DNA from: Curtobacterium sp. MCLR17_032
GTDB lineage: Bacteria; Actinomycetota; Actinomycetes; Actinomycetales; Microbacteriaceae
DNA: 64,000 nucleotides
Direction: 5' to 3'
Assembly (NCBI RefSeq): GCF_003234795.2
Contig: NZ_CP126268.1
Coordinates: 3,472,001 to 3,536,000 of the forward strand
In this document: in pieces, positions 36,490 through 61,671 of the stretch
Layout of the letters: each line of letters opens with the position of its first letter
Numbering within the stretch: position 1 is the stretch's first letter
The notes under the pieces: generated by a model
The model's database searches: none
Told to the model about the DNA's origin: nothing
What the model saw: the letters and a program-made list of their open reading frames with translations, nothing else
Made by a program: the position numbers and the translations under genes

Positions 36490-36533
36490 CGGACGGGAGG
36501 CACGGTGCCAGCTGGCATCGTGCCTCCCGTCCG
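36490..36533. repeat. Dispersed palindrome copy A (probable terminator)
   Basis: Arms of 22 bases with no loop around the centre CCAGCTGG: left CGGACGGGAGGCACGGTGCC, right complementary except one G-T wobble. It lies 27 bases past the stop of the sugar ABC permease, where a terminator is expected. Confidence 0.88.
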
Positions 36534-36560
36534 GATCGGGTCGCGACGCAGGCCGTCGGC

Positions 36561-37829
36561 TCAGGCCGCTCCGTGGCTGGCGCGGCTGCGACGCGACAGC
36601 GAGTCGATGATGACGGCGAGCAGCAGGACCGCGCCCGTGATCATGTAGCGGATCGAGGAGTCGAGGCTGAGCAGGGTGAGCCCGTTCGAGATCGACTGGA
36701 TCACGATGATGCCGAGCAGCGCCGACCACGCGCTGCCGCGGCCGCCGAACAGGCTCGTCCCACCGATCACCGCCGCGGCGATCGCGTTGAGGTTCGTGTC
36801 GCCGGCACCCGAGGACAGGCTGGCCGAGTTGAGCCGAGCCGCCGCCAGGATGCCGCCGATCGTGGCGAACAGCGAGGTGAGCATGAACACCGAGATGTAG
36901 ATGCGGTTCACCCGGATGCCGGAGCGGCGGGCGGCCTCGACGTTGCCGCCGACCGCGAAGACCGAACGGCCCCAGCGGGTGCGCTTGAGCAGGAAGTTCA
37001 TGAGCACGACGAGCACGACGAAGAACACGAAGGACGTGCCGGTGCCGAAGTCCTGCGACAGGTACCAGACCATCACGGCGAGCCCGATGAACAGGGCGGC
37101 GGACTTCGCGATCGTCAGGGACATCGCCCCGGTGGACAGGCCGGCGCGACGACGACGGCCGGCGCGACGGACCTCGGTGACGAACAGGCCACCGGCGGCG
37201 ACCGCGGCGAACAGGTAGGCCAGCCACGGCGGCAGGTACGACGCCGAGGCGAACTGCACGATCGGCGAGTCGTACGGCAGGTTGATCGAGCCGTTCGGGC
37301 CGAGGATGAGCAGCTGCAGGCCGAGGAAGCCGAGCAGACCGGCCAGGGTGATGACGAAGCTCGGGACGCCGAAGCGGGTGAAGAGCAGGCCGTAGAGCAG
37401 ACCGGCTGCCAGACCGACCGCCAGCGCGACGACGATGACCAGCCAGAGCGGCCAGCCGAGGGACGTCAGCCCCTGACCGAGGATCGCGGCCGCCAGACCG
37501 CTGACGCTGCCGACGGACAGGTCGATCTCGCCGAGGAGCAGCACCAGGACGATGCCGATCGCGATGGTGCCGACGGCCGCGCACTGCAGGGCGAGGTTGA
37601 CGAGGTTGCCCGGGGACAGGAAGTCGGGCGAGAGCGCCTGGAACACCGCCCAGATGACGATGAGGCCGACGACGACCGGCAGCGAGCCGATGTCGCCGCC
37701 GCGGACCCGACGGATGAACGCCTTCGCGGCGCCGCCGATGCCCTGGTCGCGGAGCAGCCGCTCGTCCTGCAGGTCGGCCGCCGACGGGGTCGGGTTCGAC
37801 GCGGTGAGGGTCTCGTCGGTCTTGCTCAT
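36561..37829 (-). CDS. Sugar ABC transporter permease, XylH/RbsC-like
   Basis: A 422-aa membrane permease of the CUT2 class, with 10 or more hydrophobic spans after a 45-residue cytosolic arm; LLLGEIDLSVGSVSGLAAAI and NAIAAAVIGGTSLFGGRGSA are typical. It would import a pentose or hexose, most likely xylose given the ROK regulator and binding protein. The ATG overlaps the ATPase stop (ATGA). The last gene of the operon, followed by palindrome copy A. Confidence 0.92.
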   Translation of the reverse strand: MSKTDETLTASNPTPSAADLQDERLLRDQGIGGAAKAFIRRVRGGDIGSLPVVVGLIVIWAVFQALSPDFLSPGNLVNLALQCAAVGTIAIGIVLVLLLGEIDLSVGSVSGLAAAILGQGLTSLGWPLWLVIVVALAVGLAAGLLYGLLFTRFGVPSFVITLAGLLGFLGLQLLILGPNGSINLPYDSPIVQFASASYLPPWLAYLFAAVAAGGLFVTEVRRAGRRRRAGLSTGAMSLTIAKSAALFIGLAVMVWYLSQDFGTGTSFVFFVVLVVLMNFLLKRTRWGRSVFAVGGNVEAARRSGIRVNRIYISVFMLTSLFATIGGILAAARLNSASLSSGAGDTNLNAIAAAVIGGTSLFGGRGSAWSALLGIIVIQSISNGLTLLSLDSSIRYMITGAVLLLAVIIDSLSRRSRASHGAA

Positions 37830-38653
37830 GCGGTGGTCTCCTGTTCGGTCCGGGCCGCGGCACGACGGGTGACGGCGTTGTCAGTCGCGCCGGTGATGGC
37901 CGCGATGATCTCCTCGTAGGAGACGTCGTCGATGCGGAAGGTGCCGTTGTTCCGACCGAGTCGCAGCACCGCGACCCGGTCGGCGACGGCCTGCACGTCG
38001 GCGAGGTTGTGGCTGATGAGGACGACGCCGAGGCCGCGCTCACGGAGGCGCTCGACGAGGTTGAGGACCTCGGCGGTCTGCGCGACGCCGAGTGCTGCGG
38101 TCGGCTCGTCGAGGATGACGACCTGCGGGTCGCCGATCAGGGACCGGGCGATCGCGACCGTCTGCCGCTGGCCCCCGGACAGGGACGCGATCGGGATGCG
38201 CACGGAGGGGATCCGTGCCGCGAGCTGCTGCAGGAGCTCCCACGAGCGGCGTTCCATCTCCTCCTCGTCGAGGAAGGGCTTGGCGATCTCCCGACCGAGG
38301 TACAGGTTCGACACCACGTCGAGGTTGTCGGCGAGGGCCAGGTCCTGGAAGACGGTGGCGATGCCGAGCGACTGGGCCGCTGCCGGGTTCGGAACGGTGA
38401 CCTCGTCGCCGTTGAAGGTGATCGTGCCGCCGTCCGGTGTGTAGACGCCGGCGAGGATCTTCACGAACGTCGACTTGCCGGCGCCGTTGTCGCCGACGAT
38501 GGCGACGACCTCACCCGGGTAGACGTCGAAGTCGATGTCACTGAGGGCCTGGACGGCACCGAACCGCTTGTCGATGCCGCGGAGGGACATCACGGGTTCG
38601 GTGGTGGGGTGTGCTGCTGGGGGCTCGGTGCTCACGGTGTCGTCCTCGATCAT
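37826..38653 (-). CDS. Sugar ABC transporter ATPase, single-domain XylG-like
   Basis: A 275-aa ATP-binding subunit: Walker A GDNGAGKST, signature LSGGQRQTVAIARSL, Walker B VVILDEPTAALG, H-loop ISHNLAD. CUT2 ATPases such as XylG and RbsA usually carry two nucleotide-binding domains in about 500 aa; this one has a single domain, a form often seen in actinobacteria that would act as a dimer. It lies 57 bases after the binding-protein gene across a hairpin. Confidence 0.92.
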   Translation of the reverse strand: MIEDDTVSTEPPAAHPTTEPVMSLRGIDKRFGAVQALSDIDFDVYPGEVVAIVGDNGAGKSTFVKILAGVYTPDGGTITFNGDEVTVPNPAAAQSLGIATVFQDLALADNLDVVSNLYLGREIAKPFLDEEEMERRSWELLQQLAARIPSVRIPIASLSGGQRQTVAIARSLIGDPQVVILDEPTAALGVAQTAEVLNLVERLRERGLGVVLISHNLADVQAVADRVAVLRLGRNNGTFRIDDVSYEEIIAAITGATDNAVTRRAAARTEQETTA

Positions 38654-38667
38654 CGGAAGTGCGTGCG

Positions 38668-38698
38668 GGCCGCCCGGTCCGGATCGGACCGGGCGGCC
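38668..38698 (-). terminator. Intra-operon hairpin after the binding-protein gene
   Basis: A perfect 13-bp stem (GGCCGCCCGGTCC and its complement) with a 5-base loop, 12 bases past the binding-protein stop and 15 bases before the ATPase start. It parallels the hairpin at 17699 and would lower expression of ATPase and permease relative to binding protein. Confidence 0.7.
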
Positions 38699-38710
38699 GG
38701 GGGGTGTTGC

Positions 38711-41169: not shown

Positions 41170-41217
41170 GACGGACGGGAGGCGTGGTGCCAGCTGGCAC
41201 CGCGCCTCCCGTCCGTC
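41170..41217. repeat. Dispersed palindrome copy B (probable terminator)
   Basis: A 48-base palindrome with 24-base arms, beginning GACGGACGGGAGGCGTGG, centre GCCAGCTGGC, and one wobble pair. It lies 30 bases past the stop of the osmoprotectant binding-protein gene. Confidence 0.9.
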
Positions 41218-41247: not shown

Positions 41248-42270
41248 CTAGGGCTTCGTGATGAAGCCCTCCTTGACCATCCACTCGAAGGCGACGTCCG
41301 CCGGCTCGCGGCCCTCGACGTCGACCTGCCGGTTGAGCTCCTGCAGCACCGCATCGGTGAGCTTCGGCGAGATCTGGTCGTAGATCCCCTCGAGCTGCGG
41401 GTACTTCTTCAGCGTCGCGCTCGAGAGCACCGGGGCGACGTTGTACGCCGGGAAGAACCCGCGGTCGTCCTGCAGCACCTGCAGCCCGAGCGACTTGATG
41501 CGGCCGTCGGTGGTGAAGACCTCACCGAAGTTGCACGTGCCGCGGTCGGTCGCCGTGTAGACGGTGCCGGTGTCGAGGATGTCGACGTTCCCCTTCGGGA
41601 TCGCCCCGTCGCCGGAGCCGCCGAGCGTCAGACCGTACTTCGCGAGCATCGGCTTGAAGCCGTCGGCGCGCGAGTTGAACTCGGACTCCACGCAGAACGT
41701 GCGCTGGTCGGCCGGCAGGTCGGCGATCTGCGACAGCTTCGTGATGCCGCCGAGGTCCTTGACCGCTTCCTTCCGCACCGCGAACGCGTACGTGTTGTTC
41801 ATCGGAGCGGGCTTCAGCCAGGTGAGCCCGTTGCCGGCGTCCTCGTCCTTGACGGCCTGCCACTGCTTCGTCTTGTCCGGGATCCCCTGCTTGTGCCCCA
41901 TGAAGGTCAACCAGGCGGTGCCGGTGTACTCGTACGTCATGTCGGCGTCGTGCCCGGTCATCAGCTGGCGGACGGCCACCGAGCCCGGCACGTTCGTCTC
42001 GTCGGTGACGTCGAAGCCCGCGGCGGAGGCGGCCAGCACCGAGATCTTGCCGAGGACCAGCTGCTCGGTGAAGTTCTTCGACGTGACGGTGAGCTTCGCG
42101 TCCTCCGGCAGGCCGTCGATGTGCTTGATCGTGCCGGGTGCCGCGGCGGGCACGAAGGCGGCAGCGGGCTGCAGACCGCAGCCGGCCAGGAGGCTCGTGG
42201 TCGCGCCCGCCAGGACGACGGCGGCGAGCAGACGGCGGGCGCGGCGGCCCGTGGTGCGCGTGCGGGTCAT
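41248..42270 (-). CDS. Osmoprotectant ABC transporter binding lipoprotein, OpuCC/ProX-like
   Basis: A 340-aa glycine betaine/choline/carnitine-type binding protein. Lipobox LLAGC follows a basic signal peptide. The type II fold shows VTSKNFTEQLVLGKISVLAA, DADMTYEYTGTAWLTF, TDRGTCNFGEVFTTDGRI and FFPAYNVAPVLSS, all typical of the OpuCC/OsmX group with aromatic and polar residues for quaternary amines. Its ATG overlaps the permease stop. It comes last in the operon and is followed by palindrome B. Confidence 0.92.
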   Translation of the reverse strand: MTRTRTTGRRARRLLAAVVLAGATTSLLAGCGLQPAAAFVPAAAPGTIKHIDGLPEDAKLTVTSKNFTEQLVLGKISVLAASAAGFDVTDETNVPGSVAVRQLMTGHDADMTYEYTGTAWLTFMGHKQGIPDKTKQWQAVKDEDAGNGLTWLKPAPMNNTYAFAVRKEAVKDLGGITKLSQIADLPADQRTFCVESEFNSRADGFKPMLAKYGLTLGGSGDGAIPKGNVDILDTGTVYTATDRGTCNFGEVFTTDGRIKSLGLQVLQDDRGFFPAYNVAPVLSSATLKKYPQLEGIYDQISPKLTDAVLQELNRQVDVEGREPADVAFEWMVKEGFITKP

Positions 42271-44921: not shown

Positions 44922-45112
44922 CGGTTCTGCACTCCCTCGGGTCGGCAGTTCGACCCACGGATCGGGGCACGAACGGGCCCCAAGCTACGCAGATGCTCAG
45001 CCCACGCCGAATCCCGATCAGGAGAACGACGGTTCCACGGCGGATCCTGTGCGGCGAGAACCCCTGGTCAGCAGCACTTGGCCCGGTTGACCCTGGGAGG
45101 TCTGTAACGATC

Positions 45113-45748
45113 TCAGCTGAGGACGGGAACTCCTGCGCTACGGGACCGCAGTGCACCGGCCAGACCGGCGACCCGATCCGACTCGTGCAACGCCACCCGC
45201 TCCGCCGTGAGCAGCAGCCCGGAGACCTGCTCCGCGGTCCGTCCCGCGCTGTCGTTCCAGCGGGTCAGGTCCCGCACCCGGCCCATCCGGATGTCCGGCG
45301 CCGGGCACCACGTGACGGGCGACCCCTCGGCCGATGCGAGGGCGTGCCAGACGAGGTCCAGGGAACGCTGCACCGGCTGCGAGTGCACCGCGTGCGGCCC
45401 GCCCGCAGCGTCCACGACGGCCCCGACCAGGCACGCACCGACCAGGGGACGGCCGGCCACCTCGGTCGCGGCGGCACTCGACGCGGTCCGGGTCCGGCCC
45501 CGCTCGTCGACGTAGGCGAACCAGGCGTGCTGGATCCATCCACGGTCGACGACGGCCCGGGCCTCGGAGAGCACGCGCTGCAGGTCGGCGAGTTCGGCCA
45601 GGTCGGTGTCGAGCCGACGCAGGTGCGCAGCGGTCCGTCGGGCGGCGAGGTGCTCGAGGACCCGGCGCACCCGACCGCGTGGTGCGGTCCGGGGTGCGGG
45701 GTCGGCGTCGGTGGCGACGTCGTGCTGGACGCGGAACTCGAGGGTCAT
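45113..45748 (-). CDS. DUF6197 family protein
   Basis: A 211-aa protein whose conserved core matches the DUF6197 pattern: EARAVVDRGWIQHAWFAYVD, GACLVGAVVDAAGGP, QPVQRSLDLVWHALAS and CPAPDIRMGRVRDLTRWND. The family is of unknown function and occurs in actinobacteria and their phages. The ATG follows GGGAGGGG. It lies 78 bases after the bacteriocin ABC ATPase in the same direction but has its own strong ribosome site, so it is probably not part of that system. Confidence 0.82.
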   Translation of the reverse strand: MTLEFRVQHDVATDADPAPRTAPRGRVRRVLEHLAARRTAAHLRRLDTDLAELADLQRVLSEARAVVDRGWIQHAWFAYVDERGRTRTASSAAATEVAGRPLVGACLVGAVVDAAGGPHAVHSQPVQRSLDLVWHALASAEGSPVTWCPAPDIRMGRVRDLTRWNDSAGRTAEQVSGLLLTAERVALHESDRVAGLAGALRSRSAGVPVLS

Positions 45749-45826
45749 GAGGCCCCTCCCGATCTTCACGTGCACGGATGGTGTGGGGAGACGCTAACCC
45801 CGCCGTCGCGCTCGCGGTAGCCCCCG

Positions 45827-46510
45827 TCACCCCTCCTGCGGGAAGTGGAGCCCGGGTGCGGTCCCGTCGAGGGACAGGGTCCGGTCCGCCGCCCGGACGA
45901 CGTCGCCGTCGTGTGTCGCGACGATCACGGTCGCGCCCTCGCTCCGGAGGACGTCGATCGTCTCGATGACGACTGCGGTGGTACCTGCGTCCAACGCGGC
46001 GGTCGGCTCGTCGAGCAGGACGAGACCCGGACGGCGGACGAGCACCCGGGCGAGCCCGACCCGCTGTCGTTCGCCCCCGCTCAGGGCATGCACCGGCGTG
46101 TCCATGAGGGCATCGATGCCGAGCGACGCGCATGCCTGCAGCGGCGGAGCGGGTCGGCTGACCGGGCGGTCCGGCGTCGCTCGCTGCGCGAGTGCCAGGT
46201 TCTGGCGCACGGACCATGACGGGACGAGCCCCGCGTCCTGCGACATGAAACCGACCCGGTCGCGACGGAACCGCCGCAGCCGCCGGTCGGAGAGCAGGCC
46301 GAGGTCGTTGCCGTCGACCAGGACCACTCGGGGTACCGGACGTTCGACTCCGCCGACGAGACGCAGGAACGTCGACTTGCCGACACCGCTCGCACCGGTG
46401 ACCGCCGTCAGCGTGGACGGCCCGAACACCACCTCGGGGACGGCGACCAGCACACGCCCGTTCCGCGCATGCCGATGCGCCCGGACCTCCACCGTCTGCT
46501 CAGGTCGCAT
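45827..46510 (-). CDS. ABC transporter ATPase of the bacteriocin operon
   Basis: A 227-aa MacB/LolD-like ATPase: Walker A GASGVGKSTFLRLVGG, Q-loop FMSQDAGLVPSW, signature LSGGERQRVGLARVL, Walker B LVLLDEPTAALD, H-loop ATHDGD. It starts 11 bases inside the end of the large membrane protein gene, so the two are coupled and would form an exporter or an immunity pump for the bacteriocin encoded two genes upstream. Confidence 0.9.
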   Translation of the reverse strand: MRPEQTVEVRAHRHARNGRVLVAVPEVVFGPSTLTAVTGASGVGKSTFLRLVGGVERPVPRVVLVDGNDLGLLSDRRLRRFRRDRVGFMSQDAGLVPSWSVRQNLALAQRATPDRPVSRPAPPLQACASLGIDALMDTPVHALSGGERQRVGLARVLVRRPGLVLLDEPTAALDAGTTAVVIETIDVLRSEGATVIVATHDGDVVRAADRTLSLDGTAPGLHFPQEG

Positions 46511-48485
46511 CCGCGTCGCCTCCGACTCCGGCGTTCCGGACCACTGCCCCGACGACGGCTCCCGACGTCGCGCACGCGAGCACCGACGCCGCGAGGAGAG
46601 CAGGAGCCGACGCAGCTCCGAGTGCCAGCGAGACTGCCGCCGCGACCCCGACGGAGGTGACGAGGACGCCGCACTCGGCGACGAGTGTCCGCGCGTGGAC
46701 ACGGAGCGGGCGGAGGCCCAGAGCGGTCGCCTCCCGCACCCGCATCGCGTCCGACCAGCGGAGCGTCTGCGCGCGGGTGGAGACGGCCATGGCGATCACC
46801 GCCAGCACGAGCGCCACAGCGATCGCCTCCGCCAGGGCCGTCCGCAGGAGAGCGCTCCGATGAGCGGCTGTCACCGCCGGCCAACGATGCAGCGAACCGA
46901 CGGCGTCAGCCAGACCAGCGGCGCGGATGACCTGCTCCGGGTCGTCGACGTCGAGGAGCAGTTGACCGTTCGACGCAGCGGCCGTCAGGAAGTCGCCGCT
47001 CAGCAGCTCGGACGCCGCAGGGACGACAGCGATGACGGGTGCGTCCGCGAACAGGGGCGCTTCGTCCGTCGCCGCGCCGAAGGTGAAGACCGGGCGGGGG
47101 GCGTACTCGATGACCACCGGGGCGCGGGGTGCGGCGAGCGTCGGGTCGACCTCGCGCTGGAACGCGAACCACTCACGCCACTGTTCGACGACGCCCGCTG
47201 TCGACGGGACGCCGCGCTCCGGTACGAAGAGCGCCCACTCCCCGGACCTCGTGCTGGTCCGCCCCGGCCACGGCTCGGGGAGTGCGGGCTGCACACGGTC
47301 GAGGTACTCGCGGTTGACCACGAGCGTGTTGCCCACGTCCGGCTCCACGCCGCGCCCGACCGGCATGACGGGATGGCTCGCCAAGACCGACCGCCCGTCG
47401 TCGACCGTCCGGTAGAGACGAGCGAACGCCGGTGCCGCCGACTCGATCTCGTCGGGGAGCAGCGTCCCCGACAACAGCGGCGTCACGCACTGCGAGCAGT
47501 CGACGCGGGTCTCCCCCGCCAGGCGGTACTGGTCGAGCAGGACGATGCGGTCCACGAGCGGACCGGCCACGAGCGCAACACTCGTGACCGCCGTGATCCG
47601 GAGGACCGACGTGGCGAGCGCGGTACTGCCCCGCGGTCGCCAAGCGCTCCGACCGGCCCGCAGCCGTTCCGCCGCGGTGCGTGGCCAGCCCGTTGCCATC
47701 GCTCCGAGGAACAGGCCGGCGGAGGTCCAGTACGCACAAGCAGCGACCGCGAGGACGGCCGGCAGCTGTGAGCCGACCAGGACGAGCGCGGCGGCTGACC
47801 CGGCAGCGGCCGCAGCGAGCGCGACGACGATCTGACACCGCAGTGCTCGGGCGGTCTCCGCGTACCGCACCCGGGGCACACCGAGGACTTCCGCGACGCC
47901 CAGCCGACGAGCCGCCGATCTCCCACACAGCCGCCCGAGCATCATGACCGCGACGCCCGAGGCGCCGAGGGCGACCCCGACCCCGGGTCGGCCGATCGTG
48001 AACACGATCGCTGTCCACCAGCCAGCCGGTTCGTTCCGCGCGTCGACGCCCGCGCTGCGGAGCTCGGAGACGAACGCCGAAGCCTGATCCGACGACGCGG
48101 TCGAGAAGTACACACCACGCGTCGATGTCTCGCGCTCGCTGAGGACCACTGGCTGCTCAGCCACACCACCGCGGTACTCGCCGTCGCGGAAGACACGGGC
48201 GAACGCGCCCGGGTCCCCGACGACCGCGTGGACGAGCCGTCGGCCGACCCGGTCGGGGTCGGCCTGGACCCGGTAGAAGTCGATGTGGTCCTGGTCTGCC
48301 TGCTCCCGGAGCAACCGCGCGAAGTCGACGTCTTCCGGGACGTCGAGGACGACGACCACCGTGCGCGCGGTGGGGAAGGTCTGCTCGGACCGGTCGAGCG
48401 TCGCGAGCAGGGCGAGCGCGATGGCGACGGCGGCGGAGAAGGTCATCGCCACGAGGACGAGCCAGGAGGACCGATCAGGACGCAT
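46500..48485 (-). CDS. Bacteriocin-associated integral membrane protein (DUF1430/FtsX-like)
   Basis: A 661-aa membrane protein: one N-terminal span (LVLVAMTFSAAVAIALALLA), an outer domain of about 125 residues, three or four spans around 155-310, a second outer domain of about 250 residues containing VDCSQC, and three C-terminal spans. This layout with a partner MacB-like ATPase matches the membrane subunit found with lactococcin 972-type bacteriocins, thought to give immunity or export. Starts 27 bases after the bacteriocin stop. Confidence 0.8.
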   Translation of the reverse strand: MRPDRSSWLVLVAMTFSAAVAIALALLATLDRSEQTFPTARTVVVVLDVPEDVDFARLLREQADQDHIDFYRVQADPDRVGRRLVHAVVGDPGAFARVFRDGEYRGGVAEQPVVLSERETSTRGVYFSTASSDQASAFVSELRSAGVDARNEPAGWWTAIVFTIGRPGVGVALGASGVAVMMLGRLCGRSAARRLGVAEVLGVPRVRYAETARALRCQIVVALAAAAAGSAAALVLVGSQLPAVLAVAACAYWTSAGLFLGAMATGWPRTAAERLRAGRSAWRPRGSTALATSVLRITAVTSVALVAGPLVDRIVLLDQYRLAGETRVDCSQCVTPLLSGTLLPDEIESAAPAFARLYRTVDDGRSVLASHPVMPVGRGVEPDVGNTLVVNREYLDRVQPALPEPWPGRTSTRSGEWALFVPERGVPSTAGVVEQWREWFAFQREVDPTLAAPRAPVVIEYAPRPVFTFGAATDEAPLFADAPVIAVVPAASELLSGDFLTAAASNGQLLLDVDDPEQVIRAAGLADAVGSLHRWPAVTAAHRSALLRTALAEAIAVALVLAVIAMAVSTRAQTLRWSDAMRVREATALGLRPLRVHARTLVAECGVLVTSVGVAAAVSLALGAASAPALLAASVLACATSGAVVGAVVRNAGVGGDADAT

Positions 48486-48512
48486 GGTGTGGAGAAGCGG
48501 CGCGCTGGCGCG

Positions 48513-48845: not shown

Positions 48846-48873
48846 GGTGATCCCTTCGTGAGCGGACCGTGCG

Positions 48874-48903
48874 AACATACCAACATTGCAGTTCTGGATG
48901 CCA
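48874..48903 (-). promoter_or_regulatory. Candidate promoter of the bacteriocin operon
   Basis: On the minus strand TATGTT (48874-48879) as -10 and TGGCAT (48898-48903) as a weak -35 are 18 bases apart, in an AT-richer patch 28 bases before the bacteriocin ATG. Confidence 0.4.
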
Positions 48904-48933
48904 GTAGGGATCTCGAGAGGCGCCGACGCACCG

Positions 48934-49267: not shown

Positions 49268-49310
49268 GTAGCCGGGCGGTCGTCCGGGTTCGTGTCGTAC
49301 CGTTCCCGGC

Positions 49311-49742: not shown

Positions 49743-49765
49743 CGCGTCCGGCCGGGGTCCGGTGG

Positions 49766-50926: not shown

Positions 50927-51675
50927 CCCCCCTGTCTACGCGAAGCGTCGTCCAGGAACCAGTCCCTCGGGTGGGGGTCTGCGGTGAGCTGGCGGCGCGG
51001 ACCGGTCGGTGCGGCCCACCCGGCGGCGTTCGCCAGGACCCGCTGGATGTCGGGGTGGTGGTACACCGGGTACTCCTGGTCGCCGGGCGAGAAGTAGAAC
51101 ACCCGACCGAGTCCGCGGCGGTAGGCGACGCCGGAGCGGAACACCTCGCCGCCGGCGAACGTCGACAGGAAGACCTCTTCGTCCGGGCGCGGGATGTCGA
51201 AGTACTCGCCGTACATCTCCTGGCGGTCGATGACGATCGGGTGCGGGACCCCGGCGGCGATCGGGTGCTCGGGCGCGATCGTCCAGACCAGCTCGCGCTC
51301 GCCGTCGTTGCGCCACTTCAGCGAGCAGGTCGTCCCCATCAGCCGGGTGAACGGCTTCGAGTAGTGGCCGGAGTGCAGCACGACCAGGCCCATGCCGGCG
51401 TGCACGTGGCGGACGACCCGGTCGACGACCTCGTCCGCGACCTCGTCGTGGGCGATGTGGCCCCACCAGAACAGGACGTCGGTCGCGGCCAGACGTTCCT
51501 CGGTCAGCCCGTGTTCGGGTTCCTGCAGCGTGGCGGTCGTGACGGTGTCGGCGGAGGTGAGTCGTGCCTCCAGGCCGGCGGCGACCACGGTGTGGATGCC
51601 GTCGGGGTAGTGCTCGCGGACGGTCTCGTCACCGCGGGTCTCGTGGACGTTCTCGTTCCAGACGACGATGTTCAC
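50923..51675 (-). CDS. ThuA-domain (glutamine amidotransferase-like) protein
   Basis: A 250-aa protein with the ThuA fold: [80 protein letters not shown]. ThuA in rhizobia helps use trehalose, and pairs of ThuA with Gfo/Idh proteins are common. The GTG start overlaps the Gfo/Idh stop (GTGA). The precise reaction is unknown. Confidence 0.88.
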
Positions 51676-52790
51676 CGGACGACCTCCACTTCGTGACCGG
51701 CCTGCGCCGAGGCGTAGACGGCGTCGACGACCCGGGTGCGGTGCAGCGCGAACTCGCCGTGGTGGCCCTCGTGTGCACCCGAGCGGATGGTGGCGAGGAA
51801 CTCCTCGATGACCCGCTGGTGGTGGCCGGCCGGCACGTGCACGGCGGGACGGGTGACCGCGGGGACGCCGTCGATGTCGGAGTACAGCTCGACGGTGCCC
51901 TCGGTGGCGTAGTTCCGGACGAACAGCCGGGCGCCGCCGGTGGACCCGAGGAGCTCGACCTCGATGTCCTCGTCGTCCTTGGAGTACGACGCCCACGAGG
52001 CCTGCAGCTGCAGGCTCGAGCCGTCCTCGAAGCGGAGCAGGGCGTTCGCGAAGTCCTCGACGTCGAACGGGCGACCGGTCGCGTCGGAGACGGGGCCGCC
52101 GCCGGTGCTGCCACCGCGTCCGGCGGTGCCGAGTTCGTTGTACGCGACGGCGCTGACGGCCACGACCCGGGGTTCCCCCATCAGGTACATCGCGATGTCG
52201 AGCACGTGCGAGCCGAGGTCGATGAGCGGGCCCCCGCCGGCCGCGTCCTTGTTCGTGAACCACGACGTGATCCCGGGGATGCCGGCGCGTCGACGCCAGC
52301 TCGCGCGGGCGTGGTAGACGTGCCCGAGCGGACCGTCCTGCCCGTCGACGGGGCGGACGTGGTCGGCCAGGAACTGCACGTCGGCACGGCGGCGGTGGTT
52401 GTAGGCGACCTCGAGCACACGGTCGTTCGCGACGGCGGCGTCGACCATGGCCTGGGCCTCGGCGCCGGTGGTCGCCAGGGGCTTCTCGCAGAAGACGTGT
52501 TTGCCGCTCTCGAGTGCGGCGATGGCGATCGGGGCGTGCAGGGAGTTCGGCACGCCGATCGACACGATGTCCAGGTCGTCCCGGGCGACCAGGTCCTGCC
52601 AGTCCGGGTACGTGTGCGGCACGTGGCGGGACTCGGCGAGCTCGTGGAGCCGCTCGGTCTCCTTGCCCGCGAGTGCCACCACCTCGGTGCCGGGGAGTGC
52701 GGTGTAGGCGTCGAGGTGCGTCGTCCCGGCGTACCCGAGCCCGACCACCCCCACGCGCAGCGTCTTCGATGCGTCCGTCGTCTGCGACAT
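51672..52790 (-). CDS. Gfo/Idh/MocA family oxidoreductase, ThuB-like
   Basis: A 372-aa NAD(P)-dependent sugar oxidoreductase: [17 protein letters not shown]ossmann motif, [15 protein letters not shown] with the catalytic-type Lys, and [19 protein letters not shown] with the His used in catalysis in many members. With ThuA it would oxidise a sugar or polyol to a keto derivative. Likely start [14 protein letters not shown]; a second ATG lies nine bases upstream. First gene of a three-gene coupled operon. Confidence 0.9.
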
Positions 52791-52815
52791 GTCGACCACG
52801 CTACCGAGAAACGGG

Positions 52816-52829
52816 TCGAATCGATACGA
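52816..52829. promoter_or_regulatory. Near-perfect palindrome, candidate LacI-family operator
   Basis: TCGAATCGATACGA has arms that match except one pair and the central ATCGAT seen in many LacI-family operators. It lies 26 bases before the Gfo/Idh start in the divergent gap shared with the secreted DUF4832 protein. Confidence 0.45.
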
Positions 52830-52943
52830 GGAACCGGGGGTGGTGTTTTCTGATCGTTTGACCTACCTTCAGATCACATTCGCGCAGGTTCCGACACCAG
52901 GGGGTGTCGATCCGCACCTGCGCCGAGGTCAGGGGCTCGTCCG

Positions 52944-54383
52944 ATGCAGCACCGCACCATCACCACCGCCGCACTCGCGGCCGTGATCGCACTCGCCGTG
53001 CCGACGAACGCGTGGGCGTCGTCGTCACACAGCGACCACCACCCGGCGCCGACCAGCTCCACCGTGTCGTACACGGCGAGCGACGCCGTCATCCCGAACC
53101 CCCAGCGCGGGTTCGACCACACCACCGAGACGCACTACCGCGCCGACGGCAGCGGCTACACCCCGCTCGACGCCGGCACCCTGCAGGGCTACCGCGCCGA
53201 CGGCGTCACCCAGATCGTCCGGGTGTTCTACATGGAGGCGTTCGTCGACCAGCGGCGCCTCAGCCCCGCCTGGCTGCAGCTGGTGCAGCACGACTACGAC
53301 ACCGCGCGAGCCGCCGGCGTCAGCGTGATCACCCGCTTCGCCTACGTCCAGGGCGGCAGCTACCCGTACTCGGCTCCGTACGGCGACGCCGACCTGCCGA
53401 CGGTGCTCGCACACATCAAGCAGCTCACGCCGACCCTCCGCCGGAACGCCGATGTGATCCCGACCCTGCAGGAGGGCTTCATCGGCCTCTGGGGCGAGGG
53501 CTACTACACCGACCACTTCGCCAGCGACCCGGCCAACCCCGGCGTGCTGACCGAGGCGGACAAGGACGCCCGACGCCAGGTGATCCAGGCCGAGCTGGCA
53601 GCCCTGCCGTCCAGCCGCTCCATCCAGGTCCGCACCATGCAGATGAAGCAGGACGCGCTCCGCACCACCTCGGGCGCCGCCGGGGCACTCACGCCGCGGC
53701 AGGCGCACGACGGGTCGGCCGCGTCCAGGATCGGTCACCACAACGACTGCTTCCTGGCCTCGCCCGACGACTTCGGCACCTTCCTGACCGACCCGCTGTC
53801 GCTCGACCAGGACTACCTGGCCGCCGACTCGCGGTACGTCCCGGTCGGCGGGGAGACCTGCGCCGTGAACGCGCCGCGGTCCGAGTACCCGTCCGCCTCG
53901 GCCGAGATGGCGAAGTACCACTACAGCTACCTCAACCTGGACTACAACAAGGACGTCCTGTCGACCTGGGGTCAGGACGGCATGACCGACGCGGCGAAGA
54001 AGCTCGGCTACCGGTTCACGCTGACCTCGAGCACGGTGACCTCCGGCAAGCACGCGGCGGTCTCGGTGTCCGTGCGGAACGACGGCTGGGCAGCGCCGTA
54101 CAACCACCGCCCGGTCCAGCTCGTCCTGACCAACGGCCACCGACACGTCACCGTTCCCGTCCGTGCCGACGCGTCCTCGTGGCAGCCGGGCACGACGGCG
54201 ACCGTCACCGCCTCGCTCCGTGGGGTGCCGACCGGCAAGTGGGACGTCGCCCTCGCGATGCCCGCCGCCGAGCGGTCCGTCTCCCGCGACCCGGCCTTCG
54301 CGATCCAGACCGCGAACGTCGGCACGTGGGACGCCACGACCGGCGTGAACCGTCTCGGGCAGGTGGTGACCGTCCGGCGCTGA
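52944..54383 (+). CDS. Secreted DUF4874/DUF4832 protein
   Basis: A 479-aa exported protein with a Sec signal peptide (MQHRTITTAALAAVIALAVP, cleavage near NAWA-SSS). The middle has the DUF4874 pattern (NPQRGFDHTTETHYRADGSG, ITRFAYVQGG, LQEGFIGLWGEGYYTDHF), TIM-barrel-like, followed by DUF4832 with SIQVRTMQMKQDAL, HHNDCFLASPDDFGTF and a C-terminal beta-sandwich. Such proteins look like glycoside hydrolases but lack a proven activity. It is divergent from the Gfo/Idh-ThuA operon, which suggests joint regulation around one glycan. Confidence 0.87.
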   Translation: MQHRTITTAALAAVIALAVPTNAWASSSHSDHHPAPTSSTVSYTASDAVIPNPQRGFDHTTETHYRADGSGYTPLDAGTLQGYRADGVTQIVRVFYMEAFVDQRRLSPAWLQLVQHDYDTARAAGVSVITRFAYVQGGSYPYSAPYGDADLPTVLAHIKQLTPTLRRNADVIPTLQEGFIGLWGEGYYTDHFASDPANPGVLTEADKDARRQVIQAELAALPSSRSIQVRTMQMKQDALRTTSGAAGALTPRQAHDGSAASRIGHHNDCFLASPDDFGTFLTDPLSLDQDYLAADSRYVPVGGETCAVNAPRSEYPSASAEMAKYHYSYLNLDYNKDVLSTWGQDGMTDAAKKLGYRFTLTSSTVTSGKHAAVSVSVRNDGWAAPYNHRPVQLVLTNGHRHVTVPVRADASSWQPGTTATVTASLRGVPTGKWDVALAMPAAERSVSRDPAFAIQTANVGTWDATTGVNRLGQVVTVRR

Positions 54384-54411
54384 GCGTCGTGATCGTCGTC
54401 GGCCGTCGCTG

Positions 54412-54455
54412 ACGCCAGGACGCCCCGGGCACAACGGCCCGGGGCGTCCTGGCGT
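54412..54455 (+). terminator. Strong hairpin after the secreted DUF4832 gene
   Basis: A perfect 19-bp stem (ACGCCAGGACGCCCCGGGC and its complement) with a 6-base loop, 28 bases past the stop. Confidence 0.85.
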
Positions 54456-54505
54456 GCGGCGGCCGTCCACCCGTCTTCCACCCGGCGTCCGCCACGATGG
54501 GGGCC

Positions 54506-54964
54506 ATGACCCCTCGATCCCTGTTCCGCGGCCTCGCGATCGCCGAACTCGTGACCTGGACCCTGCTGCTGGTGGGCATGCTGCTGAAGTACGGCCTGGG
54601 TGCCGGTGACTGGCCGGTCCGGGTCGGTGGCGGAGTGCACGGCTTCGTGTTCCTGGCGTACCTCGTCGTCACGACGGTCGTCGCGGTGAACCAGCGGTGG
54701 TCGTTCGGCGCGACGGTCCTCGGCTGGGTGAGTGCGATCGTGCCGTACACGACGCTGCCGTTCGAGGTCGGTGTCGCCCGCCGCGGCATGCTCGACGGTG
54801 GGTGGCGTCGCGGCCCCGAGGCCGGGGAGCGCCCGGGTCCGCTCGATCGGCTGCTCTTCGTCGTGGTGGCGCACCCGTTCCTGGCCGCGGCGATCGGGGT
54901 GGTCCTGGTGGCGCTCGTCTTCGTGGTGCTGCTGACGATCGGCCCGCCGGTCCCGTCGCGCTGA
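54506..54964 (+). CDS. DUF3817 membrane protein
   Basis: A 152-aa protein with four spans and the DUF3817 pattern: LFRGLAIAELVTWTLLLVGM, VGGGVHGFVFLAYLVVT, WVSAIVPYTTLPFEVG. The last 50 residues add a charged loop and one more span. Function unknown; the family is widespread in actinobacteria and some firmicutes. An ATG nine bases earlier is possible. Confidence 0.87.
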   Translation: MTPRSLFRGLAIAELVTWTLLLVGMLLKYGLGAGDWPVRVGGGVHGFVFLAYLVVTTVVAVNQRWSFGATVLGWVSAIVPYTTLPFEVGVARRGMLDGGWRRGPEAGERPGPLDRLLFVVVAHPFLAAAIGVVLVALVFVVLLTIGPPVPSR

Positions 54965-55001
54965 CGGGTCGCGACCGGTTCGGTCGCGCGGCAGCACCAC
55001 A

Positions 55002-55049
55002 GACGGACGGGAGGCCCGGTGCCAGCTGGCACCGGGCCTCCCGTCCGTC
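55002..55049. repeat. Dispersed palindrome copy C (probable bidirectional terminator)
   Basis: A perfect 48-base palindrome: 24-base arms beginning GACGGACGGGAGGCCCGG, centre GCCAGCTGGC, no mismatch. Flanks ACCACA and TGTGGT extend the pairing after one bulge. It lies between the convergent ends of the DUF3817 and isocitrate dehydrogenase genes. Confidence 0.92.
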
Positions 55050-55061
55050 GTGTGGTCGCGC

Positions 55062-57272
<2,211 letters not shown>

Positions 57273-57334
57273 GCTGGCGGGTACTCCCTTGTTCGCGCGG
57301 TCCGTGCCCCCCACGCTACTCGCGGCGTGAGATG

Positions 57335-57348
57335 TCTCGACATCAAGA
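57335..57348. promoter_or_regulatory. Operator-like palindrome upstream of icd
   Basis: TCTCGACATCAAGA reads on the other strand as TCTTGATGTCGAGA, so it is symmetric apart from one Y/R pair and the two central bases. It lies 63 bases before the icd start where a promoter is expected (minus-strand TATCTTGATGTCGAGACATC). Confidence 0.5.
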
Positions 57349-57356
57349 TACCCGTC

Positions 57357-57395
57357 CTGTGGAGGAGCGCCAGTGATCCCCGGACCTGTGGAGGA
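57357..57395. repeat. Two copies of CTGTGGAGGA upstream of icd
   Basis: CTGTGGAGGA at 57357-57366 and 57386-57395, 29 bases apart. The same word occurs in the tandem repeat at 36437-36472. It reads TCCTCCACAG in the direction of icd. Confidence 0.5.
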
Positions 57396-57424
57396 AGCGA
57401 CCAGCCGTGTCCGCCGCGGAACGC

Positions 57425-57913
57425 TCAGACCGTCAGGCGGAACACCCGGAGCCCGGCCGCCCGCAGACCGGCCGTACCGAGCCGGGTGCGTAGGTTCCGG
57501 AAGGGCCGACGGAACCCCGACCAGGCCCTCGCCGCACCGAGCTGGTGCAGGACCTCGGCGGTCAGGGCGCGCTCGAGCTTCGGGGCCAGTCGGGTCACCC
57601 GCGACACGGTGATCACGATGCGCACCGCACCCGGCCGGAGCAGGGGTTCGAGGAGCTCGGCCGCTTCCTGCGCCCGGTGGAACGCGGGGTCCTCGCCGGG
57701 CCGGCGGATCGCGATGACCGCGAGCTCCGCATCGGCGGTCTCGTGCAGCTCCGGCACGTCGTCGACACCGACCACGCGCATCCGCGCTGCATCGACTCCG
57801 GCACGGACGGCAGCGGCCCGCAGGATCGGGAGCAGGTCCTGGGTGCCGGCGAGCACGACCTCCGCCGACCGCAGGTCGATGGGTTCGTGCCGCTCCCGCG
57901 GCGATCGGGACAT
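57425..57913 (-). CDS. Hypothetical cytosolic protein
   Basis: Unrecognised 162-aa basic protein starting [20 protein letters not shown]. The alternating alpha/beta pattern ([54 protein letters not shown]) suggests a small Rossmann-like or methyltransferase-type fold, but no motif is clear. It lies upstream of icd on the same strand, divergent from the M23 peptidase gene. Confidence 0.65.
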
Positions 57914-58060
57914 GAGGGGTCCTCTCCGTCGCTCGTCTCGACACTACTGATCCACAGCCGGGAGGCCCGGATCCCGTCGATCTGCGCACCCCCGACCGCA
58001 GTCGGCCGGGGAACGAGGGGCTGTACAACCGGACAGGTTCGTGCAGAATGGGCTCCGGCC

Positions 58061-59086
58061 ATGACTCTCCCTGACGCAGACCACCCCCGCAGCACGCCCG
58101 TCGTGCACCTGACGCGTCGTGCTGCCCTGGCGGCGGAGCGGGCTGCCCTGGCGGCGGAGCGGGCCGAGCAGGCCGCCGCGACGAAGCCCCGAACGCGTGC
58201 ACCGCGACCGGCACCCGAGCGCACGCCGACCGCGACGACCCCGGTCGTCACCGCTCAGGCGCGCACCACCCCGGTCGTCACCACGCCGGCCGCCGCGCAC
58301 GCCGACACCCGCATCCGCCGGGTCCCCCGCCGCGCGGTCGCCGTCGCCAGCAAGACGGCCGCCAACCCCGCCACCCCTGTCGCCCGCCGCCGCGGCCGCG
58401 GAGCCCGCGCCAGCCGCCTCACCCTGACGAGCGCCGCCGCCGCACTCGCGATGTTCGGCGCCGCCGCGATGCCCGCGCACGCCAGCACCGGCACCTCCGC
58501 CGCCATCGCGACCCTCGCCCCCGCCGTGAGCACCCAGGACTTCGCCGTCACCCAGGTGGCGCTGCCGAGCACCTCGCGCGACGGCTTCACGGTCGGCGGC
58601 GGTGTCGCCTCGACGGGCGCCGGTGCCGTGGCGGCCGGCGAAACGGTCACGTACGGCGGCGACGTCCGCTCGCCGTTCCCGGGCCCGGTGCGGATGAGCT
58701 CCGGCTTCGGGTACCGCGCCGCTCCGTGCGGCGCCTGCTCGTCCCTGCACCAGGGACTCGACTTCAACCCGGGCATGGGCGCTCCGATCGGCGCCGTCGC
58801 CGCGGGCACCGTGCGGGTGTCGGGGATCTACTTCTCGTACGGCGAGACCGTGATCATCGACCACGAGGTGGACGGCCGGAAGGTCTCGACCCTGTACGGC
58901 CACATGATCCCCGGTTCGTCGCCGCTCAAGGTCGGCGACCGCGTCGAGCCCGGCCAGTTCATCGGCAGCGTCGGGTCCTCCGGGGTCTCGACCGGGGCGC
59001 ACCTGCACCTCGAGGTCCTCATGGACGGCACGCTGCCGATCGACCCGGCCGCCTGGCTCGCCGCGCACACCGGCCGCGCCCTCTAG
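58061..59086 (+). CDS. Secreted M23-family peptidoglycan peptidase
   Basis: A 341-aa protein. About 120 residues of Arg/Ala/Thr-rich cytosolic or low-complexity sequence, with a duplicated ALAAERA unit, precede a membrane/signal segment ([20 protein letters not shown]). The C-terminal M23 (LytM) domain has zinc ligands in [11 protein letters not shown] and GAHLHLEV. It would cut peptide cross-links of the wall. The unusually long N-terminal arm is typical of actinobacterial members or could reflect a too-early start; the ATG at 58061 has no clear ribosome site. Confidence 0.87.
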
Positions 59087-59128
59087 CCACAGCGCATCCG
59101 GCAGCGCCGTGCCGGCGGAACCCGAGGA

Positions 59129-59173
59129 CGGACGGGAGGCGCGCCTCCGGACCGGTGCCGAGCCTCCCGTCCG
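59129..59173. repeat. Dispersed palindrome copy D, core replaced
   Basis: The outer 12 bases match the family (CGGACGGGAGGC and GCCTCCCGTCCG), but the central GGTGCCAGCTGGCACC is replaced by 21 other bases that form GGCGCGCC-like pairing. It lies 42 bases past the M23 stop. Confidence 0.8.
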
Positions 59174-59216
59174 ACGCCCGCAGCCGGGCACACCGACGGG
59201 CACGTAGCCTGGGCAC

Positions 59217-60125
59217 ATGGGTATCGACGTCCGCAACGAGATCCGCGACTTCCTGTCCAGCCGACGAGCCCGGCTCACCCCGGACCAGGCGGGCATGCCG
59301 TCGTTCGGCGGCGGTACCCGACGAGTCCCCGGGCTCCGTCGGCACGAGGTCGCGATGCTCGCGGGCGTCAGCGTCGACTACTACACGCGACTCGAACGCG
59401 GCACCCTCAAGGGCGTCTCGGAGGGCGTGCTCGACGGCCTGGCCACCGCCCTGCAGCTCGACGAGGCGGAGCGCGCCCACCTGGCGGACCTCGCACACCT
59501 GGCGAACGCGGGCGTGAAGACCACCCACCGGCCGGTGCCGACCTCGGTGCGGCCCGCGGTGCAGCGTCTGCTCGACGCCATCACCGGCGCCCCGGCGTGG
59601 GTGCGCAACGAGCGGCTCGACATCGTCGCCGCGAACACCCTCGGCCACGCGCTGTACGCACCGGTGTTCGCCGGTGCCGGGCGCCCGGTCAACACCGCGC
59701 GCTTCGCGTTCCTCGACCCCGCCGCCCGCGACTTCTTCCCCCGCTGGGAGCAGACCGCCCGCGACGCCGTGGCCGTCCTCCGCACCACGGCGGCCTCGAA
59801 CCCGTGCGAACCGGGCCTGATGACGCTGGTCAGCGAGCTCTCCGCGAAGAGCGAGGAGTTCCGCACCTGGTGGGCCGAGCACGACGTGCACGTGCACCGC
59901 TCGGGCCGGAAGCACCTGCACCACCCGATCGTCGGCGAGCTCGAGCTGACGTTCGAGGCGCTCGAACTGGTCGCCGACCCCGGGCTGACGGTGTTCACCT
60001 ACGGCGCCGATGCCGGGTCGGAGTCCGAACGGTCCCTGTCGCTCCTCGGCACCTGGGCCGCCACCGAGTTGGCGGAGCAGCGGGCCGCCGTGCGGTCGAC
60101 GGAGTCGGTCGACCAGGTCGACTGA
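59217..60125 (+). CDS. XRE-family regulator with MmyB-like sensor domain
   Basis: A 302-aa regulator: N-terminal helix-turn-helix (VPGLRRHEVAMLAGVSVDYY, then TRLERG), linker, then an MmyB-like PAS-type ligand-binding domain (PAWVRNERLDIVAANTLGHA, FLDPAARDFFPRWEQTA, HHPIVGELELTFEALEL), which in MltR/MmyB members binds fatty acids. Such regulators usually control a nearby short-chain or aldo/keto reductase; the reductase at 61687 is a candidate target. Confidence 0.9.
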   Translation: MGIDVRNEIRDFLSSRRARLTPDQAGMPSFGGGTRRVPGLRRHEVAMLAGVSVDYYTRLERGTLKGVSEGVLDGLATALQLDEAERAHLADLAHLANAGVKTTHRPVPTSVRPAVQRLLDAITGAPAWVRNERLDIVAANTLGHALYAPVFAGAGRPVNTARFAFLDPAARDFFPRWEQTARDAVAVLRTTAASNPCEPGLMTLVSELSAKSEEFRTWWAEHDVHVHRSGRKHLHHPIVGELELTFEALELVADPGLTVFTYGADAGSESERSLSLLGTWAATELAEQRAAVRSTESVDQVD

Positions 60126-60224
60126 GACGGACCCCGGACCGGAAGCGCGCTCGGCCCCGGCCCCGGCCCGAAGCCGCCTGCGACGGCCCGGTTGCCGTCG
60201 ACCTGCCCGCCGTAGGCTGACGAC

Positions 60225-60965
60225 GTGACGAGGACTGCGGACGGACCGGCTGGCGACGCCGAGCACGGCGGGGCCGACGGTGGCCCGAGCCCGTCCCGCC
60301 ACCGTCGTCCGGAACCGGTCTTCGAACGGGCGATCCGGGTGGCGCTCGGGCAGGCCCGCACGGTCCTCCACGTCACCGCAGGCCCCGGGGGCGTCCCGTA
60401 CGAACCGCGCGACCGGGATGTCACCGTCGTCGATCCCACCGCCGAGGCCCTGCCGTTCGCCGACGACTCCTTCGACGCCACCTCGTCGGCCTTCTCGCTG
60501 CCCGAGTGGCCCGAGTGGTCGGACCTCGAACGGGGTCTCGCCGAGGTCCGACGGGTCACCCGCGGCCCGGTCGTCCTGCTCACCCGCGACCCGGCCCGCA
60601 TCCCAGACCACTGGCTCGCCACCTACGCGCCCGAGGTCCTGGCCTGTGACGCCCGACGCTGGCCGACGCTCGACCGCATCGCCGATGCCCTGGGCGGCGA
60701 GGTCTCGACGACCCGCCTGCCGATCCCCTTCACGTGTGTCGACGGGTTCTCCGAGGCGTACTACGCACGACCGGAGCGCCTGCTCGACGCCGCCGCCCGC
60801 CGAGCCGACCCCGCCTGGGCAGCCGTCGACGAGATGACCGCGGCCCGGTCGGTCGCCGCCCTCCGCACCGCGCTCGAGGACGGCTCGTGGGACGCCCGGT
60901 ACGGCCGGCTCCGCGTGCAGCCGTCGTACGAGGGCTCGCTGGTGCTCGTCGTCGCGCAGCCGTAG
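60225..60965 (+). CDS. SAM-dependent methyltransferase-like protein
   Basis: A 246-aa class I methyltransferase-like protein. Recognisable parts are VLHVTAGPGGVPYEP in place of the usual glycine-rich motif I, VVDPTAEALPFADDSFDATS and SDLERGLAEVRRVTRGPVVL. Motif I is poorer than in standard enzymes, so SAM binding is plausible rather than certain. GTG start. It is followed by a short ORF and a hairpin. Confidence 0.72.
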   Translation: MTRTADGPAGDAEHGGADGGPSPSRHRRPEPVFERAIRVALGQARTVLHVTAGPGGVPYEPRDRDVTVVDPTAEALPFADDSFDATSSAFSLPEWPEWSDLERGLAEVRRVTRGPVVLLTRDPARIPDHWLATYAPEVLACDARRWPTLDRIADALGGEVSTTRLPIPFTCVDGFSEAYYARPERLLDAAARRADPAWAAVDEMTAARSVAALRTALEDGSWDARYGRLRVQPSYEGSLVLVVAQP

Positions 60966-60974
60966 GGTGCTGGT

Positions 60975-61028
60975 GTGAGCAACCGTTCCGAGGAGGTCGT
61001 CGGCGCCTGCGCCGGCATCAGGGCCTGA
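60975..61028 (+). CDS. Possible 17-residue leader peptide before the FBP gene
   Basis: GTG-initiated ORF read VSNRSEEVVGACAGIRA, with AGGG seven bases before the GTG, ending 6 bases before a hairpin and 104 bases before the EF-G-binding protein gene. The layout resembles translational attenuators ahead of ribosome-protection and antibiotic-resistance genes. It could equally be chance in a GC-rich gap. Confidence 0.35.
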   Translation: MSNRSEEVVGACAGIRA

Positions 61029-61034
61029 CGCCCC

Positions 61035-61056
61035 CGCCGTGTCATTCGACACGGCG
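61035..61056 (+). terminator. Hairpin between the methyltransferase and FBP genes
   Basis: A perfect 9-bp stem CGCCGTGTC/GACACGGCG with an ATTC loop. It could end methyltransferase transcripts or act as an attenuator for the FBP gene. Confidence 0.65.
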
Positions 61057-61132
61057 TCGTCGTCGAACCCTCCGAACGAACCGCACCCGTGACGCACCCT
61101 GCTGCGCCGGTGCCAGAACGACAGGCTCACCC

Positions 61133-61612
61133 ATGCTCCCGATCACCGTCGAGGCCCTCCGCGCCTCCTTCGTCAACGCCTCCCGCCGCGAGGTCACCGA
61201 GATGACCGTCCCCGACCTCGACGCCGTCCGCTGGGATGACCTCACCTTCCTGGGGTGGCGGGACCCGAAGACCCCGCGCCGCGCCTCCGCGGTCATCCCG
61301 ACCCTGGACGGCGAGCTGATCGGCGTCGTGTTCCGGCAGGCCGAGGCCTCGCCACGCTCCCGCGCCCAGTGCTCGTGGTGCCAGGACGTGAAACTGCCGA
61401 ACGACGTCGTCTTCTACAGCGCCAAGCGCTCCGGCCCGGCGGGTCGGAAGGGCGACACCGTCGGCACGCTGGTCTGCCAGGACTTCCAGTGTTCGCGGAA
61501 CGTCCGGAAGACCCCGCCGCCGGCGTACGAGGGCTACGACGTCGAGGCCGCCCGCCTCCAGCGGATGGACGACCTGCAGTTGCGGGTCGCGGCGTTCGCA
61601 GCTGAGGTCTGA
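61133..61612 (+). CDS. FBP-domain zinc protein (FusB-like, EF-G binding)
   Basis: A 159-aa protein: an N-terminal helical part (ITVEALRASFVNASRREVTE) and a C-terminal treble-clef zinc finger with four Cys (CSWCQ and CQDFQCSRNVR). FusB/FusC proteins bind EF-G and free it from the ribosome, giving fusidic acid resistance; actinobacterial homologues are widespread and mostly untested. It stands alone between hairpins, with palindrome copy E after it. Confidence 0.88.
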   Translation: MLPITVEALRASFVNASRREVTEMTVPDLDAVRWDDLTFLGWRDPKTPRRASAVIPTLDGELIGVVFRQAEASPRSRAQCSWCQDVKLPNDVVFYSAKRSGPAGRKGDTVGTLVCQDFQCSRNVRKTPPPAYEGYDVEAARLQRMDDLQLRVAAFAAEV

Positions 61613-61623
61613 CGCGACTCGAC

Positions 61624-61671
61624 GACGGACGGAAGGCACGGTGCCAGCTGGCACCGTGCCTCCCGTCCGTC
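61624..61671. repeat. Dispersed palindrome copy E (probable bidirectional terminator)
   Basis: A 48-base palindrome with 24-base arms beginning GACGGACGGAAGGCACGG, centre GCCAGCTGGC, one mismatch. It lies between the convergent ends of the FBP and aldo/keto reductase genes. Confidence 0.92.

Follow-up and report, generated by a model that had tools for sequence, protein, structure and literature searches.

The stretch of DNA analysed here (the window) comprises 64,000 nucleotides of Curtobacterium sp. MCLR17_032 (contig NZ_CP126268.1, positions 3,472,001 to 3,536,000) and carries five palindromes close to the 3′ ends of genes, each of them an inverted pair of one short half-site. A preliminary description had reported four such palindromes, 10 to 40 bases past a stop codon and in two cases between convergent genes, and a degenerate fifth, and our own gene calls (made throughout with a simple in-house caller) bear this out, as all five were located 11–42 nt past a stop, two between convergent and three between tandem genes. 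The first (36488..36535; like the others given without strand) lies between tandem genes, 25 nt past the stop of a permease gene (36561–37829, minus strand), and the second (41170..41217), again between tandem genes, 30 nt past the stop of an OpuAC-domain gene (41248–42270, minus strand). The third (55002..55049), without a mismatch as had been claimed, separates two convergent genes, a DUF3817 gene at a distance of 37 nt and the gene of a monomeric isocitrate dehydrogenase (IDH; 55062–57272, minus strand) at 12 nt; the closest named relatives of this enzyme are from Curtobacterium, with 98% identity in C. salicis. The fourth (59129..59173) is the degenerate copy, lies between tandem genes with a stop 42 nt before it and has intact outer arms and an only partial inner arm, as described. 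The fifth (61624..61671) is placed between convergent genes, 11 nt from an FBP_C gene and 15 nt from an aldo/keto reductase gene.

The statement that mismatches in the arms are mostly compensated or wobble was correct for the single wobble pair found in each of the copies at 36488 and 41170, and incorrect for the two unpaired outermost bases at 36488 and for the A·C mismatch in the arm at 61624. The latter places this copy outside the strict pair pattern introduced below, which the other four of the five palindromes match. Relative to shuffled sequences the predicted RNA folds of the four full copies are 7 to 11 standard deviations more stable, and that of the degenerate copy 2.8. A search of the window against Rfam gave no match at gathering scores.

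The repeated half-site and its dialects

The repeated unit is not the palindrome, it is an asymmetric half-site, which the preliminary description had missed, with a core (GGAGGCNCG), a lineage-specific 5′ flank (GGACG, GGCCG or GGMCT) and a looser downstream extension. In the source genome (3.71 Mb, a single contig) the asymmetric motif GGMCKGGAGGCNCG is present in 336 + 323 = 659 copies and its reversed control in 4, and 65 of 66 Curtobacterium genomes hold 265–866 copies each (reversed control 0–10). Within a 464-kb sample of the source genome, made up of evenly spaced stretches and the window, GGACGGGAGGC has the highest z-score among all 11-mers with at least 10 copies (70 copies, where a 5th-order Markov model predicts 1.8), and the motif 11-mer also ranks first in the sample from a second genome (G028). 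The 14-mer given in the preliminary description occurs 105 + 86 times in the source genome (control 0), and the strict pair pattern GGACGGGAGGC-N2..30-GCCTCCCGTCC 121 times (121 on each strand; reversed control 0), which supports the proposal of a dispersed family beyond a simple GC-rich stem. The inner 20 nt differ among the strict copies, and the core that had been described as shared, GGTGCCAGCTGGCACC, is not the invariant part.

The half-site is also found singly. The 464-kb sample holds 20 unpaired copies of GGACGGGAGGC, 9 of them within called genes, and in 17 of the 20 the sequence continues with NCG; profiles of single sites lengthen the motif to roughly CGGMCGGGAGGC-NCGG-NNC, followed by weaker positions. 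The genes of the source genome sample contain 21 copies of GGMCGGGAGGCNCG, compared with 1.5 in synonymous shuffles that preserve amino acids and codon usage (maximum 5 in 40 shuffles), and the same excess is seen in G028 (13 against 1.4), in G044 (17 against 1.9) and, for the T form of the motif, in G038 (15 against 2.0). The coding copies occur in both orientations and use all six reading frames in the source genome and five in G028 and G044. Over four genomes the sites split 93:92 between the replication strands, with the origin assumed at the contig start; with any origin the largest strand excess is 11–15 of 35–52 sites per genome, and there is no clear bias. Chi- and KOPS-type signals have a replication-strand bias, and a polar motif of that type was rejected on this split.

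The 5′ flank of the core is GGACG in the source genome and in G028, GGCCG in G044, and GGCCT and GGACT in G009, G020 and G038, with minor forms beside these. The shift from G to T between the source genome and G038 affects coding singles (23:6 versus 4:13, Fisher p = 4e-4), noncoding singles (25:4 versus 4:28, p = 4e-9) and pairs (42:5 versus 20:43, p = 6e-10) alike. This dialect shift, common to singles and pairs, is the strongest sign that we have of one trans-acting reader, at which it hints. A second over-represented word, CTGGCCGTACT, unrelated to the motif, was noticed in G009 (L220–L224; 12 copies against 0.2 expected).

Several unpaired half-sites lie in the window itself. Those within called genes are GGACGGGAGGCTCG at 63776..63789 (plus strand; gene 63370–63906, plus), GGCCGGGAGGCCCG at 15738..15751 (minus; gene 14975–15769, minus), GGCCGGGAGGCTCG at 6830..6843 (minus; gene 6360–7211, minus), the T-dialect form GGCCTGGAGGCACG at 51563..51576 (minus; gene 50923–51675, minus) and, antisense within the minus-strand gene 13004–14719, a second copy of GGCCGGGAGGCCCG at 14579..14592 (plus), whose ortholog in G028 has the motif at the same place. 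Outside called genes are GGACGGGAGGCACG at 20414..20427 (plus) and a further GGCCGGGAGGCCCG at 31608..31621 (minus). The 11-mer core GGACGGGAGGC without the NCG extension is present at 11093..11106 (plus), antisense within the minus-strand gene 10435–12057.

Paired half-sites at gene ends, fold and covariation

The 464-kb sample contains 32 pairs, counted with the second arm allowed up to two mismatches, and 24 of them have a length of exactly 42 nt. None of the 32 is contained in a called gene, although one weak pair overlaps gene ends, and 14 lie between convergent, 18 between tandem and none between divergent genes, where divergent regions make up 18% of the intergenic bases of the sample. 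Under a relaxed pattern 18 of 26 pairs in the source genome and 27 of 34 in G028 fall no more than 60 nt past a stop, 1 of 27 lies inside a called gene in the source genome, and 3 of 37 in G028 and 1 of 5 in a Frigoribacterium-like genome (G357) lie between divergent genes. The placement at gene ends noted in the preliminary description is confirmed for most pairs.

Sequence and fold leave separate traces in the pairs. Among 33 strict elements of the source genome the near-invariant inner positions (2, 3 and 7 and the positions they pair with) coincide with those conserved in the singles, and the other inner positions vary yet pair more often than independence predicts; therefore sequence and fold constrain different positions. 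The palindrome that follows the IDH gene keeps its place in 20 of the 22 loci examined in Curtobacterium and in 4 of the 5 from Frigoribacterium (omitting L139, where the contig ends, and L144, which is half masked; L162 has a degenerate 3′ arm). At several of these loci both arms have altered together, as in GGACTGGAGGC..GCCTCCAGTCC and GGACAGGAGGC..GCCTCCTGTCC. Across 23 aligned copies (22 distinct; alignment A1, which omits the two 49-nt Frigoribacterium rows L154 and L157) 92.8% of cells pair, changes on both sides of a pair affect 26 cells compared with 9.2 in shuffles (a value that none of 500 shuffles reached), and 7 of the 22 pairs have undergone a double change compared with 4.1 in shuffles (reached in 5 of 500). 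Selection on the fold, for which the window copies alone had offered half support, is borne out by this compensatory change between species. The two loci without the palindrome after the IDH gene, L159 and L168, have by eye an unrelated strong hairpin there.

Window positions 45000–64000, which include three of the five copies, contained no T-tract terminator site, and classical intrinsic termination is not evident because of this. The hairpin probably terminates transcription or protects the mRNA at gene ends.

Distribution and origin of the copies

Strict pairs are found in 65 of 66 Curtobacterium genomes and, within a 398-genome sample of the family, in 9 of 10 genomes of the same genus, with one chance-like 26-nt match elsewhere. 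Relaxed pairs, counted in 299 genomes, are present in all six sampled genomes of genus g35 (32–79 each, control 0–2); beyond these two genera there are 10 in one g55 genome, with 1–2 in each of four other g55 genomes, 6 in one g45 genome and 0–3 in the remainder. The 10-mer GGAGGCGCGG, compared with its reversed control in 120 genomes, gives a similar picture, with 272 against 119 copies in the source genome, 688 against 107 in G034, 673 against 118 in G009, and 1378 against 148 and 936 against 106 in g35; the sole sampled g55 genome (G119) has a weaker enrichment (399 against 142) in what is a third genus. In every other sampled genome that has over 20 copies the count stays within about 1.4 times the control, and G115 has 17 against 5. 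Among named loci, five from Frigoribacterium hold 59 copies of GGAGGCGCGG against 4, and 21 from Curtobacterium hold 108 copies of the 14-mer against 1; in 1.0 Mb from Streptomyces and other Actinobacteria (50 loci) there were 0 copies of the 14-mer against 3 of the control. As the same motif is seen in the named loci, we infer that g35 is Frigoribacterium. In the Frigoribacterium-like genome G357 a 340-kb sample holds 84 coding copies of GGAGGCGCGG against 8.9 in shuffles, with few paired (the coding count was restricted to the later 17 stretches; three of the first five had been chosen near listed pairs). Genus g63 shows 7, 5, 2, 1 and 0 matches to the reversed relaxed control (G192, G291, G331, G244 and G127), perhaps a different hairpin family.

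Among 50,697 phage records none matched the palindrome at 55002, and viral contigs contained 0 occurrences of the strict pair pattern. The relaxed pattern is not specific there, as the inner pairing of its matches is 0.53 among the 80 loci listed compared with 0.79 in Curtobacterium.

The preliminary description considered the palindrome a copied element, a view that the single half-sites in genes, the comparison with orthologs and the fixed place of the IDH palindrome across species speak against. Orthologs were compared for 17 of 52 coding singles, of which two fell outside the alignment and 15 were alignable, and among these 15 no site was an inserted element. For eight of the 15 the codon alignment is free of gaps. 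Two ortholog pairs, in which both species carry the motif, account for four of the eight; at the remaining four the motif is absent from the ortholog and substitutions are the sole difference, in one instance with the local amino acids RASRPF kept. The neighbourhoods of ComEC in 30 species contained no exact motif and two sites with one mismatch.

A candidate DNA uptake sequence

In the genomic features examined here the half-site resembles a DNA uptake sequence, as the preliminary description had suggested, without our claiming membership of that class. The likeness draws support from half-site enrichment, coding singles, dialects and gene-end pairs; it stands together with that description's family, gene-end placement and fold, while its copied element and its comparison with repetitive extragenic palindromic (REP) elements are not supported. 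A 2025 account (PMC12616744) knows of no families other than Neisseriaceae and Pasteurellaceae that recognise kin DNA at uptake by short motifs. The DNA uptake sequences (DUS) of Neisseriaceae, as described in PMC3630211 and PMC12616744, are likewise short and over-represented, with singles in genes, inverted pairs at terminators, and an inner core with dialects. The Curtobacterium motif differs from them in phylum and cell envelope, in its unrelated GC-rich sequence and lower copy number, in the fixed 20-nt interior and covarying arms of most pairs, and in that no ComP-type receptor was identified. To the uptake signal sequences (USS) of Pasteurellaceae it is similar in its core with a looser, discontinuous downstream extension and in a density inside their range of 31–913 per Mb, and it is dissimilar in that the USS extension is AT-rich and the conserved USS inner core unrelated (PMC12616744, where the USS receptor is also only predicted).

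The source genome has comEA-comEC, followed by a gene which from its position we take to be holA, and ComEC is present in 64 of 66 Curtobacterium genomes, the two without it being fragmented or incomplete assemblies. A further locus of the source genome (L276, G000:C1:3386001-3404000) is a type IVa-like pilus operon that encodes PilM, a prepilin peptidase, pilins with the N-methylation motif, PilC and two adjacent T2SSE ATPases, placed as PilT and PilB; for two pilin-like proteins encoded there (208 and 609 aa) no Pfam match was obtained at E 0.001. These competence genes are compatible with uptake without discriminating in its favour. Natural transformation in Actinobacteria is described for Micrococcus luteus via a Flp pilus in PMC4322843, where the term 'uptake sequence' is absent from the text in the part available. 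Searches of the open-access literature, by title or abstract opening, returned no report of uptake sequences in Actinobacteria, Actinomycetota or Microbacteriaceae, none of the motif among the matches listed for Curtobacterium palindromes, and none of the motif for Microbacteriaceae transformation and type IV pili.

We consider it fairly probable that the half-site is a DNA uptake sequence, and our confidence in the motif, its dialects and its paired gene-end form is much higher than in this function. With slightly greater reserve we favour an uptake sequence system that would have evolved independently in Actinobacteria, with dialects in Curtobacterium and Frigoribacterium, read by a minor pilin of a type IV pilus or another surface receptor, and shaping gene ends into hairpins that serve both uptake and termination. 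In such a system a pilus-borne or surface receptor would bind the half-site on free double-stranded DNA, leading to preferential uptake of kin DNA, and half-sites would arise by mutation and then spread and be maintained through biased transformation. Paired half-sites at gene ends are turned towards each other, mostly at one fixed spacing, and selection there maintains complementarity of the intervening arms as well, giving a 3′-end hairpin in the transcript. To our knowledge such a system would be the first in Gram-positive bacteria. It would represent a third, unrelated tag of kin DNA, implying that such tags have evolved more than once and do not depend on an outer membrane; natural competence would then be expected in two further genera, and there would be a new system in which to match receptor and dialect across 66 Curtobacterium species and Frigoribacterium.

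Several observations weigh against an uptake function. No receptor was identified for the half-site, we know of no uptake or competence in Curtobacterium or Frigoribacterium, and a literature search on Curtobacterium natural competence returned nothing relevant by title. Of 85 genera sampled in the family, 48 have PilT relatives, and most of these genera lack the motif; a type IV pilus confined to motif bearers was not found, and the presence of the machinery is no predictor of the motif. C. ammoniigenes, the remaining one of the 66 Curtobacterium genomes, has ComEC and PilT yet carries only 41 copies of GGMCKGGAGGCNCG (control 4), though it has its own GNTCN dialect (GNTCNGGAGGCNCG, 23 copies against 1 reversed in a 400-kb sample). 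The motif density of the source genome, about 180 per Mb, is modest even if inside the USS range, and strict arms are there paired more often than single (32 pairs, 20 singles). Small indels overlap or adjoin seven of the 15 coding sites that could be aligned. Palindrome copies are also found on plasmids, two of Curtobacterium and two of Microbacterium (M. sediminis NZ_CP038257.1:112635-112686 and M. paraoxydans NZ_CP064874.1:123809-123860), the latter possibly carried over from Curtobacterium.

Of the alternatives, the one to which we assign a real, if minor, chance is that the half-site is bound by a chromosome-wide protein acting in nucleoid organisation, recombination or repair, with the pairs at gene ends insulating transcription. 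Such a protein would account for the enrichment in genes and at gene ends, for both orientations and for co-evolving dialects without any competence, but the sites lack a clear replication-strand bias of the Chi or KOPS type, the pairs are not concentrated at gene starts, and we know of no protein class whose sites form such inverted pairs at gene ends. That the pairs are lineage-specific terminators or 3′-end hairpins only, kept by selection on RNA structure, we judge improbable. Their near absence between divergent genes, the high proportion of paired cells with double changes in 7 of 22 pairs, and the replacement of the palindrome by another strong hairpin at L159 and L168 all fit this explanation, which shares with intrinsic terminators a GC-rich hairpin just 3′ of stop codons; it leaves unexplained the unpaired half-sites in genes in all frames, the sequence conservation of outer arms that also occur singly and the dialect common to singles and pairs, and the scanned part of the window has no T-tract.

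A REP-like or miniature inverted-repeat (MITE-like) element copied by a transposase in trans is very unlikely. REP elements with RAYT transposases are dispersed extragenic palindromes, and the dispersed, near-identical palindromes here, nearly all outside called genes and with copies on the four plasmids, have that appearance. However, the Y1_Tnp family (PF01797) expected of a REP-associated tyrosine transposase is found in 0 of 66 Curtobacterium genomes (a control search was positive in 5 of 14 genomes), half-sites lie inside genes and change in place, orthologous positions are kept across two genera, and, as noted, none of the alignable coding singles is an insertion. An explanation of the motif as an artefact, arising from high GC, from codon usage or from the amino-acid pattern GREAR, would suit a GC-rich motif of which one frame reads Gly-Arg-Glu-Ala-Arg, and is scarcely credible against the excess over synonymous shuffles, the use of six frames, reversed controls near zero and the lack of the 14-mer in the loci of Streptomyces and other Actinobacteria.

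Elsewhere in the window, an 89-nt direct repeat with 96% identity between its copies (33508–33596 and 33674–33762, 166 nt from start to start) is placed between two called genes, of which one ends at 33495 and the next begins at 33761.

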